Origin: a virus
Strand: one strand, 5' to 3'
DNA length: 35,099 nucleotides
IMG/VR virus record: IMGVR_UViG_3300010368_000042
Location: 1 to 35,099 of that record
Made by a program: the position numbers and the translations under genes. The notes under the pieces are model-generated. The model was not told the origin of the DNA. It saw only the letters and a program-made list of their open reading frames with translations, and made no database searches. Shown one piece after another: positions 31,648 to 35,099 of the stretch. Positions within the stretch are counted from its first letter, which is position 1; every line of letters starts with the position of its first letter.

Positions 31648-31662
31648 GTCTTTTAACTCCAT

Positions 31663-31803
31663 TTTAATTAACGCCAGTCAGTGATCTGTTCGGCGAGTGA
31701 GTTCATATTAAACTATCTAATTATAAAAGTAAACAAATAATTATAAAATATGATAATATGTTTCTACTGTATTAAGTCACACAACAACCATAAAGGAATA
31801 ACA
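31663..31803. promoter_or_regulatory. Divergent AT-rich control region
   Basis: The 141-bp gap separates the leftward recombination block from the rightward replication block, so both must start here. It holds two TATAAT boxes readable on the minus strand (31720-31725 and 31739-31744), plus plus-strand TATGAT/ATAATATG sites near 31749-31760, but no good -35. The HTH protein encoded at 31804 may bind here. The exact promoters cannot be fixed by eye. Confidence 0.5.
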
Positions 31804-31986
31804 ATGAACGAAATTGAACTAATTAAACAACAATTGAAAGATCGTAACTTAAAGGCAGTTGCTTTGGCGGCTGATGTTAGCTCTGGCGCACTGTATAAGC
31901 TGATGGACGGGTCTACATCTAATCCGTCTTATGATCTTATTAGTAAGTTAAAAGTTTATTTGAATGTTGACCAATCAAAAAAGTAA
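31804..31986 (+). CDS. Cro-size XRE-family HTH protein
   Basis: The 60-aa protein is one HTH domain: KQQLKDRNLKAVALAADVSS gives helices 1-3 with the recognition part SGALYKLMDGSTSNPSYD, then a last helix (LISKLKVYLN). It is Cro-like in size and position: first gene rightward of a divergent control region. I took the ATG at 31804 with AAAGGAATAACA upstream; the longer open frame from 31750 is noncoding in look. No second CI-like repressor is seen in the window. Confidence 0.78.
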   Translation: MNEIELIKQQLKDRNLKAVALAADVSSGALYKLMDGSTSNPSYDLISKLKVYLNVDQSKK

Positions 31987-32050: not shown

Positions 32051-34063
32051 ATGGGTAATATATCAAGTATATTCGGCCAAGCTTTCACGCCGCCAACAGA
32101 TAAGATTTTAGATAGTCCTGAAATACAATTACAAGATGCCATGTTAGAACATGGCTTAACGCCGCCTGACCATATTATTATGGATGGTAAGTTAAGACGA
32201 TTCACTAGCGGAACTAAAGGCCAAGGCGGCCAAGGAGATAAAACCGGCTGGTACGTCTGCTTCGATGGTGATATGCCTGCCGGAAAATTCGGTGATTGGC
32301 GATCAAGCATAGAAGTAAACTTTCGTGCCGACATTGGCCGTAAATTTACTATGCAAGAGGAAATGGCTAATAGTAGGCGGATGCAAGAAGTCAAGGCCTT
32401 ACGCGATGCCGAGTTAGAACGTTCTCACAGCCTGGCAGCTAACACAGTACAAACAATATGGGATAACGCCACACACGCCACACACGAGCATGGCTATCTA
32501 TCGCGCAAGGGCATACAGTCTAATGGCGCTAGGGTAACAGGTGACGGGCGTTTAATCGTGCCGTTATATGATAAAGATAACGAATTATGCAGCCTACAAT
32601 ATATTAGTATTGATGGTGAAAAACGCTATCATTCAGGCGGCCTAACACTTGATTGCTTTAATGCTCTAGGTATAGAGGATAGAAAATCAACCATATACGT
32701 GGCCGAGGGATTTGCAACTAGCGCATCCATATATGAAGAAACAGACCAGCTCACATACATAGCGTATAGCGCATCTAATATACCTAACGTGGTAAAGCAT
32801 ATCCGTGAAGTCTATGGTATTAGCCAAGATATATGCGTGGTAGCTGATAATGATGAAAGCGGTGTTGGTCAAAAATATGCAGATCAGGCTAGTGCTAAGT
32901 ATGGTTGTCGTGTCGTATTGCCGCCTAATAAGGGTGATGCTAATGATTATATTCAATCAGGAGGTGATCTAAAGTCACTACTTATGCCTACCGTTGACAA
33001 TTGGTTAATACAAGCCGATGACTTTAGCAATCAACCAGCACCCATATCATGGTTAGTAAAAGGCTGGATTCAAGACAATGCCTTAATTATGGTGCATGGC
33101 CCAAGTGGTGGTGGTAAGACTTTTGTTGTTTTAGATTGGTGTTTAACTATCTCAGGCGGTGTAGATCATTGGTTTGATAATAAGGTTAAAAACGGCTCAA
33201 TCATTTACTTAGCAGGTGAGGGTCATCATGGCTTGCGCGGTCGCGTGGCAGCATGGAAACACGCTCGAGGCGTAGATAAGCTTGATATGTGGCTAAGCCG
33301 TGAAGGGTGCGATTTAAACACGCCAGAAGGTTATCAGCGCGTAGTCAATAACATTCGTGCGCTAGATATTAAACCTAAGATGATCGTTGTCGATACGCTT
33401 CATCGCTTCTTATTAGGTGATGAGAATAGCAGCCAAGATGCTAAAACCATGCTAGATGCTTGCAGCGGCATTATGAATGAGTTTGGTTGTAGTGTATGCC
33501 TTGTTCACCATACAGGCGTTAGCGATGAAGCACAGCATAGGGCGCGAGGTTCTAGTGCTTGGCGTGGTGCATTAGATATTGAGATCAGTATAGTGCCGGC
33601 TAAGAATGACACGCCTATTCAGATCGTTCAACGTAAATCTAAAGATGCTGAGTTAGCTAGTGATCTTTTTTGTACGCTAGAAACAGTTGCTATACCTGGC
33701 TGGTTTGATGAGGATAACGAGGCTGTTACCAGTGCTGTAGTAAAAGAAGCCGAGGCTTTAGATGCTAAACCTAAACAAGATAGTAAGTTAAATGAAGCTA
33801 AAAAGACAATCCAAAGGGCTTGGTTTGCTTCTGATTGTGAAGAAAGAGAGTCAACACCATACGTTAGCCGGTCTGCATTAAAGGGTATTTTGTCTAAAGA
33901 TGGACTAAAAGAACGTACCATTATTAACATAATGACACCGTCAAGAAGTGATGGATTGATCAATTTATTGGTTAATTCAGAAACAATTGAACTATATGAG
34001 CATGGTTATTTGATCGTAGATAATGCTTTTTCTAGTGCTTTAATGTTATCTAAAATAGGCTAA
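32051..34063 (+). CDS. Primase-helicase (Toprim + RecA-like helicase)
   Basis: The 670-aa protein is the likely replication initiator/helicase. The N-terminal half is primase-like: FDGDMPAGKFGDW (71-83), TIYVAEGFATSASIYE with Glu219, and VVADNDESG with Asp266/268 of the Toprim fold. The C-terminal half is a RepA/DnaB-like ATPase: HGPSGGGKT (Walker A, 349-357), IYLAGEGHHGLRGR, MIVVDTLHRFLLGDE (Walker B) and LVHHTG. It has no N-terminal zinc-finger. A good SD (AGAGG) precedes it, and the hexamer-repeat array begins six bases after its stop. Confidence 0.92.
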   Translation: MGNISSIFGQAFTPPTDKILDSPEIQLQDAMLEHGLTPPDHIIMDGKLRRFTSGTKGQGGQGDKTGWYVCFDGDMPAGKFGDWRSSIEVNFRADIGRKFTMQEEMANSRRMQEVKALRDAELERSHSLAANTVQTIWDNATHATHEHGYLSRKGIQSNGARVTGDGRLIVPLYDKDNELCSLQYISIDGEKRYHSGGLTLDCFNALGIEDRKSTIYVAEGFATSASIYEETDQLTYIAYSASNIPNVVKHIREVYGISQDICVVADNDESGVGQKYADQASAKYGCRVVLPPNKGDANDYIQSGGDLKSLLMPTVDNWLIQADDFSNQPAPISWLVKGWIQDNALIMVHGPSGGGKTFVVLDWCLTISGGVDHWFDNKVKNGSIIYLAGEGHHGLRGRVAAWKHARGVDKLDMWLSREGCDLNTPEGYQRVVNNIRALDIKPKMIVVDTLHRFLLGDENSSQDAKTMLDACSGIMNEFGCSVCLVHHTGVSDEAQHRARGSSAWRGALDIEISIVPAKNDTPIQIVQRKSKDAELASDLFCTLETVAIPGWFDEDNEAVTSAVVKEAEALDAKPKQDSKLNEAKKTIQRAWFASDCEERESTPYVSRSALKGILSKDGLKERTIINIMTPSRSDGLINLLVNSETIELYEHGYLIVDNAFSSALMLSKIG

Positions 34064-34068
34064 AAGTT

Positions 34069-34181
34069 TTACCCTTTTTTACCCTGAGGGTAATTTAGGG
34101 TAAAGGGTAAAAAAGTGACAAAAAACGCATATTCTTTACCCTCCCTTACCCCTTACCCTTTAGGGTAAGGGTAAAGGGTAA
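34069..34181. repeat. TTACCC/GGGTAA hexamer array, candidate origin (iterons)
   Basis: Eleven perfect hexamers lie in 113 bp. TTACCC starts at 34069, 34079, 34136, 34146 and 34153; GGGTAA at 34088, 34098, 34105, 34163, 34169 and 34176. They form two blocks, each with TTACCC copies facing GGGTAA copies, so each block is a large inverted repeat; the second has perfect 8-bp arms CCTTACCC/GGGTAAGG around TTTA. Degenerate copies follow at 34203 and 34217. An AT-rich stretch to 34270 is next. Its place after the primase-helicase gene suggests an origin; regulator sites or a terminator are alternatives. Confidence 0.6.
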
Positions 34182-34282
34182 AGATGCAGTTGCGAATTTT
34201 TAGGGTGTTTGTTTTAGGGTAGGTATTGTTTAGTTGTATAATAATCTTTCAGTAATGATTTTAATTAAATTGGAGTAATAAA

Positions 34283-34570
34283 ATGAAAAAGTTATTAAGT
34301 ATTAGTTTGATTGGTTTGTTTTTAGGTGGTTGTGTAAGCATGGAGCAAATGGTAGAACGTGAAGGTGCTAAACATAATGCACCGCGATGGAAAATAGATG
34401 CGGTTAAGCATGGTTGCATTTCAGGTCGTGCTGATGGTGGTGATATGTACAGTAGATTTATAAAGGACTATGATCAGTACAAGACTAATTCTGACTATGC
34501 TATGGTCTATGATGATAGTTATAAAACATGCAGGGCTAGGTATGAATCTACTATGAGGAGTTATCGGTAA
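34283..34570 (+). CDS. Small lipoprotein
   Basis: The 95-aa protein has a signal peptide (KKLLSISLIGLFL) with lipobox LGGC, so Cys17 would be lipidated. The mature part (SMEQMVEREGAKHNAPRW … KTCRARYESTMRSYR) has two more Cys and many charges. It is preceded by TGGAGTAATAAA and a TATAAT box at 34237-34242, so it may have its own promoter. It lies outside the lysis block, as extra genes (morons) often do. Superinfection exclusion by masking a receptor, as with phage lipoproteins such as Cor or Llp, is possible but not shown. Confidence 0.78.
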   Translation: MKKLLSISLIGLFLGGCVSMEQMVEREGAKHNAPRWKIDAVKHGCISGRADGGDMYSRFIKDYDQYKTNSDYAMVYDDSYKTCRARYESTMRSYR

Positions 34571-34653: not shown

Positions 34654-34961
34654 GTAAGGCTCATCAATACCATAACCTGTATAATACTAAGCAATGGCAG
34701 CGTTTAAGATACTATCAACTGTTAAGCAATCCGTTATGTAAGTATTGTTCTGATGCTGGTTTGATTGTCAATGCAAAGATCGTTGACCATATCAAACCAC
34801 ATAAGGGCGATGAATCGCTGATGTTCAATGCAGATAACCTGCAATCATTATGCAAACATTGTCATGATAAAGTTAAGGCAACGATTGAGCGTAAAGGTTA
34901 TCTGATTGGTAGTGATGCAAGTGGTATGCCAGCAGATAAAACATCGCATTGGTATAAGTGA
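34641..34961 (+). CDS. HNH endonuclease
   Basis: The 106-aa protein has the HNH motif with zinc-binding Cys: CKYC (33-36), VDHIKPHKGDESLMFNADNL (48-67) with the His of the first H, the Asn of the middle, and CKHCHDKV (71-78). It is the HK97 gp74 type that works with the terminase in packaging, and it lies at the packaging end of the window as expected. The upstream 27-aa frame overlaps its start. Confidence 0.9.
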   Translation: MALVGKAHQYHNLYNTKQWQRLRYYQLLSNPLCKYCSDAGLIVNAKIVDHIKPHKGDESLMFNADNLQSLCKHCHDKVKATIERKGYLIGSDASGMPADKTSHWYK

Positions 34962-35056
34962 TTTAAACGCTGTATAAGCTACTTAAATATAAACATAGCG
35001 CGTAGTATTAACAAAAAATTTAACGAGCTTTAAGACGCTATAACGTGCGTTTAAAT
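34961..35056. repeat. 10-bp inverted repeat bracketing the HNH-terminase gap (candidate packaging site)
   Basis: ATTTAAACGC (34961-34970) and GCGTTTAAAT (35047-35056) are a perfect inverted pair 76 bp apart. The gap holds no gene. GGGTAG and GGGTAA occur just after it (35057 and 35067). Position between HNH and the terminase genes is where cos or terminase-binding sites are often found, but nothing visible shows cleavage. Confidence 0.4.
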
Positions 35057-35099
35057 GGGTAGGGGTGGGTAAAAAGTCAAAAGCCTTATCCTCAAAGAC

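Follow-up and report, generated by a model that had tools for sequence, protein, structure and literature searches.

Locus and array

The window comprises an entire IMG/VR record (35,099 bases, classed as linear) from a tailed phage with terminase, portal and tail genes. Its last stretch (34961-35099) is an HNH gene and its first (1-130) is terminase large subunit, with no small-subunit gene seen between them; a short part of the genome may be missing from the linear record.

The gene at 32051-34063 (+ strand) encodes a primase-helicase with a Toprim_3 primase part, an AAA_25 (RSF1010 RepA-like) helicase and a C-terminal winged helix, as assigned from Pfam, PDB and AlphaFold2. Pfam detects only AAA_25 (E 4e-34) and Toprim_3 in this protein, and the best PDB match of the helicase part is RSF1010 RepA (1g8y, E 7e-8). 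The C-terminal domain (amino acids 572-670; 33764-34060, + strand) is folded by AlphaFold2 as a winged helix with a pLDDT of 91, and the full-length model joins it to the helicase through a poorly modelled linker (572-576). It has no match in Pfam and only weak, generic winged-helix matches in the PDB, where a profile search with the domain returned nothing credible.

Just 3' of the primase-helicase stop codon, a 113-bp segment (34069-34181) holds 11 perfect copies of TTACCC/GGGTAA in two inverted blocks; features given here without a strand have none assigned. Block 1 (34069-34110) consists of five GGGTAA words in the order < < > > > (starts at 34069, 34079, 34088, 34098 and 34105) and includes a small palindrome at 34079-34093. 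An A-rich spacer (34111-34135, ..GTGACAAAAAACGCAT.., read from the sequence) separates it from block 2 (34136-34181), which has six words in the order < < < > > > (starts at 34136, 34146, 34153, 34163, 34169 and 34176). Within block 2 lies a perfect hairpin, CCCTTACCCTTTAGGGTAAGGG, with the apex CTTTAG (34150-34171). A GATGC-like box, GATGCAGTTGCG (34183-34194, + strand), stands 3' of block 2, followed by two degenerate words, AGGGTG at 34202 and AGGGTA at 34216 (34202-34221, + strand), with similar copies in the nearest relative found, L008. An AT-rich stretch (34230-34289, GC 0.17) overlaps the leader of the next gene and is a candidate unwinding region, a role that we infer.

An earlier, sequence-only reading had described 11 hexamers in two inverted blocks, degenerate copies downstream and an AT-rich segment nearby, and all of these elements were recovered on recounting. 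The densest 6-mer per 200 nt across the record reaches 11 copies, at the array, well above the 4-6 given by 20 whole-record shuffles and the at most 8 copies of any 6-mer given by 1000 local shuffles of the array region. The whole-record count proposed in that reading gives 22 copies of the hexamer, and the 11 outside the array are at chance level (shuffle mean 11.2). Since the word occurs at the chance rate outside the array, the isolated copy at 35067, which had been counted as a member, need not belong to it. The surrounding sequence (35054-35082, GGGTAGGGGTGGGTAAAAAG), close to the end of the record, partly resembles the array words and contains one perfect copy.

The array in relatives

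We sampled phage records and approximately 90 viral or genome contigs with a full-length primase-helicase homologue; counts for relatives rest on 75 non-redundant loci. At 65 of these 75 loci, the strict maximum of 6-mer density falls in the stretch just 3' of the primase-helicase gene. The words themselves differ, with about 20 kinds among the relatives. GGTACA follows the gene in Idiomarinaceae phage 1N2-2, GGGACA in Salicola phage CGphi29 and GGTTCA in Alteromonas phages XX1924 and PB15, and the words of other clades include GGGTCA, AGGGGG, GGTAAC, GGAAC, CGTACC, CGGACC, GGGCGT and GGTATA.

The layout is kept across relatives: an inverted block 1, an A-rich spacer, a hairpin-containing block 2 and a GATGC-like box. 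The GCAAAA-like spacer lies at the same place (compared by eye), and GATGC-like boxes stand 3' of block 2 in most relatives. Conservation, which the sequence-only reading had named as a check, thus holds for the layout across the family but not for the hexamer, as GGGTAA was found in only two sequences, the record and L008.

The array is shifted approximately 1-1.65 kb further downstream in L088, with the same layout, and in L032/L342. These displacements indicate that the array is an element in its own right, not merely a consequence of where the gene ends. L032 also carries a long GCCAGA/GCCATA tandem hexamer array (approximately 1600-1950) that is unrelated to the origin words. Among the relative loci examined, a clear array was not seen in a few (for example, L030), and none was seen in the most divergent full-length relative, MW202475 (L006).

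Co-variation of the word and the winged helix

The C-terminal domain is the most variable part of the primase-helicase across relatives. Array word distance correlates with C-terminal domain distance (partial r 0.61 with the rest of the protein controlled; 0 of 2000 permutations) in matrix permutation tests, which only partly remove shared ancestry. No correlation with the helicase core or the N-terminus was found in the same relatives. A DNA-binding role had also been proposed for the helix-turn-helix (HTH) protein encoded at 31804, and this receives no support: its partial correlation with the word is -0.05, in a comparison that used a mechanical choice of HTH ORFs and contains some noisy rows. 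Judged by these distances, the word tracks the C-terminal winged helix and neither the rest of the primase-helicase nor the HTH protein.

Within the domain, residues that differ with the word but are constant within a word are concentrated at 619-633 (33905-33949, + strand). AlphaFold2 places this segment on helix 50-57 and the loop behind it (domain numbering; +571 gives protein numbering), and it is the presumed recognition helix with the loop that follows. We accordingly refer to the winged-helix domain as the presumed reader of the words. The sliding co-variation profile peaks at amino acids 616-635 and declines on both sides, including toward the C-terminus, which is nearer the array. Physical linkage of domain and array predicts the opposite slope, so the profile argues against hitch-hiking.

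DNA-only pattern scans of 2.9 million viral contigs identified 69 GGGTCA arrays, and the winged-helix domain is encoded 60-150 nt upstream in 66 of the 66 with enough upstream sequence. Scan contigs without a detected domain but with at least seven word copies encode a related AAA_25 helicase, except for three that are cut less than 400 nt from the array; those with at most five copies look like chance matches, except for one cut at the contig start. At residue 626, the GGAAC arrays (n = 53) go with Val in 50 cases and Thr in three, and the GTAAC arrays (n = 29) with Gln in 25 and Met in four, with no crossover of Val and Gln between the two words; approximately 12 GGAAC and two GTAAC contigs were already in the earlier comparison and the remainder are new.

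Several natural swaps were also identified. L007 matches the record at 93-100% per 30-residue block over amino acids 121-570 and at 30-57% beyond that, in a contig that stops 96 nt past the stop codon and is too short to show an array. L018 and L049, whose words are unrelated, match at 99% in the core but at 48% in the domain. In L156 (MW202867), a gene at 869-2761 combines a Prim-Pol-like N-terminus (judged by eye, backed by a fold match of the domain to a Prim_Pol protein) with a related helicase and the same winged-helix domain, and a GGGACA array with a hairpin and DnaA boxes lies at approximately 2760-2900. As L156 keeps domain and array with another primase, the reader-plus-array module appears independent of primase type.

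The hairpin

Perfect stems of at least 8 bp occur in 49 of 73 array regions, compared with 48 of 3417 control windows. A CT..AG apex is present in 42 of the array-region hairpins versus three in the controls, counted without prior filtering for the apex. Among 23 distinct hairpins, pairing is kept at stem positions 4, 5 and 6 (beyond the three pairs that selection of the hairpins required) in 23, 19 and 18 cases, respectively, and the letters vary. Stem letters that change while complementarity stays suggest that the folded structure is under selection, which could act, for example, on single-stranded DNA.

More distant AAA_25 helicase phages (L280, L317, L327, L353, L386 and similar) carry dense word arrays around a CTTTAG hairpin, and the C-terminal winged-helix domain is not detectable in them. 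The putative origin type extends wider than the primase-helicase family studied here.

Probable origin function and alternatives

In 30 of 75 relative loci (40%), the array has perfect DnaA boxes (TTATCCACA) on its flanks, and their positions hardly vary. We counted 70 boxes in 30 kb of array regions versus 24 in 559 kb elsewhere, a 54-fold enrichment; none is present in the 35,099 bases of the record or in L008. This enrichment in relatives suggests that the TTACCC/GGGTAA array is very probably the phage DNA replication origin. GC skew, proposed earlier as a check, changes sign near 21.9 and 31.9 kb. This is consistent with an origin in the region, but because the skew tracks the direction of the genes it is not independent evidence.

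The sequence-only reading had suggested iterons for origin binding by the primase-helicase, in an inverted layout instead of direct repeats. The place and layout of the array in dozens of relatives, the DnaA boxes and the co-variation of word and domain all argue strongly for such iterons, and the words do stand in both orientations in two inverted blocks. Like iterons, they are several copies of one short word beside an initiator gene; unlike classical iterons, they are not direct repeats in one orientation. The array would thus work like an iteron origin instead of being a classical member.

It is improbable that the array is an operator at which the 31804 HTH protein, or the primase-helicase as autoregulator, controls transcription instead of replication start. 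The palindromic word arrangement is operator-like and the HTH gene lies upstream of the primase gene, but the word does not track the HTH protein and the divergent promoter region (31662-31804) lacks any word. Moreover, the array follows the last replication gene of the operon, can be displaced and has DnaA boxes beside it in relatives.

The chance is smaller still that the winged-helix domain binds the array as a site for packaging (pac/cos), partition or recombination. Such a site would fit the position of the array, which is separated from the end of the record by approximately 1.1 kb and lies close to what is presumed to be the terminase end of the genome. In CGphi29, however, the terminase small subunit gene begins approximately 1.9 kb after the primase, and in XX1924 the primase is followed by a long run of small genes. 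That the word tracks a domain of the helicase, and the presence of DnaA boxes, also speak against this site.

Slightly less probable again, in our view, is a role in the primase mRNA, as a transcription terminator or an RNA element built around the hairpin. In its favour, the hairpin is conserved with compensating stem changes, but the words track a DNA-binding-like domain and are found in either orientation. The array region contains no T-run or terminator-like site and has no Rfam match, and a terminator and an Rfam RNA element were rejected on these grounds. Finally, slippage can lengthen runs of short G/A-rich words in an AT-rich setting, but a functionless low-complexity repeat is hardly credible for an array that is not head-to-tail tandem, keeps its orientation pattern and cross-phage layout while its word changes, exceeds shuffles and control windows, and co-varies with a protein.

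Proposed mechanism

An origin of replication remains our preferred reading. We regard it as highly likely that the array is the origin, bound through the winged helix of the primase-helicase, opened by the helicase and primed at the hairpin, with word and domain forming a cognate pair. From the observed layout, conservation, co-variation, hairpin and DnaA-box enrichment, we infer binding, origin firing, helicase loading and hairpin priming as follows. The primase-helicase would bind the hexamers through its C-terminal winged helix, with specificity residues around 619-633, and oligomers would assemble on the two blocks, whose words face both ways. Loading of the RepA-like ring helicase would follow, and with it opening of the DNA. 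The exposed strand could fold into the CTTTAG hairpin, at which the fused Toprim primase might plausibly be loaded or begin synthesis. Where relatives have DnaA boxes beside the array, as many do, these may recruit host DnaA. Word and winged-helix domain would evolve, or be swapped, together as a cognate pair.

A broader reading, for which we see the balance as even, is that winged helix, hexamer array and CT..AG priming hairpin form a portable unit exchanged between phages with unrelated primase types. One or a few helix residues would re-program the hexamer, giving a readable protein-DNA code with approximately 20 natural words, driven perhaps by origin-targeting parasites or nucleases.

With these observations, a sequence-level rule would become available for locating the origin and the cognate reader across a large phage family most of whose members are uncultured. 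They also supply naturally matched pairs of initiator helix and word, a data set from which single-residue specificity changes may be predictable (for example, Val/Gln at 626 for GGAAC/GTAAC). Origin-module swapping, for which there is experimental evidence in satellites such as PLE, would thereby extend to a tailed-phage family.

Comparison with known systems

The principle is known from SaPI Rep, PLE RepA and phage P4, whose alpha protein is an SF3-type helicase. For the family described here, the nearest points of likeness are spread over several replicons.

In PMC7581432 (citing Ubeda et al. 2007), SaPI Rep and SCCmec Cch2 are described as recognising multiple short repeats directly downstream of their own gene through a C-terminal domain, and their helicases as belonging to other families (DUF927-like, D5/Primase_Cterm). 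The phage array similarly places short repeats directly 3' of the putative initiator gene, with specificity that appears to track the C-terminal domain. It differs in its AAA_25/RepA-like helicase fused to a Toprim primase, without DUF927 or D5/Primase_Cterm in Pfam, and in its hairpin and, in many relatives, DnaA boxes.

In the PLE of Vibrio cholerae, RepA/ori modules show co-variation and exchange, and a nuclease directed at the origin is a likely driver (PMC8263062). The phages resemble PLE in that origin iterons co-vary with a DNA-binding domain and the two are exchanged as a matched unit. The PLE RepA_N domain is N-terminal, however, and the PLE initiator has no predicted helicase or primase activity; PLE iterons are semi-palindromes of approximately 30 bp in two replicon groups, compared with approximately 20 words here (PMC8263062, PMC7145576).

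P4 alpha and pRN1 ORF904 are likewise fused primase-helicase initiators, with a Toprim-type primase in P4, and ORF904 also has a C-terminal winged helix, with an essential stem-loop downstream of the gene in pRN1 (PMC4234260). Unlike the phage protein, ORF904 joins an SF3 helicase to an archaeo-eukaryotic primase, and pRN1 has no iterons (PMC4234260). Word switching of comparable breadth is not reported for P4 or pRN1 in that source.

Both pRN1 and RSF1010 use stem-loops in their origins (PMC4234260). IncQ RSF1010 shares with the phage system a homologous RepA helicase fold of the hexameric type and an origin with iterons and hairpins (PMC4234260). RSF1010 instead uses separate RepA/RepB'/RepC proteins, in which RepB' is the primase and RepC reads direct iterons, and has no Toprim primase fusion, whereas the phages combine helicase, primase and presumed reader domain in one protein. 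The RSF1010 origin carries ssiA/ssiB (PMC4234260), exposed hairpins at which primers are made; the phages have a conserved hairpin with a putative priming use.

We found no earlier description in the open-licence literature of the array, of its combination of features or of word switching of such breadth. The family is new in joining a RepA-fold helicase, an undescribed winged helix, mixed-orientation iterons with a hairpin and a candidate readable recognition code.
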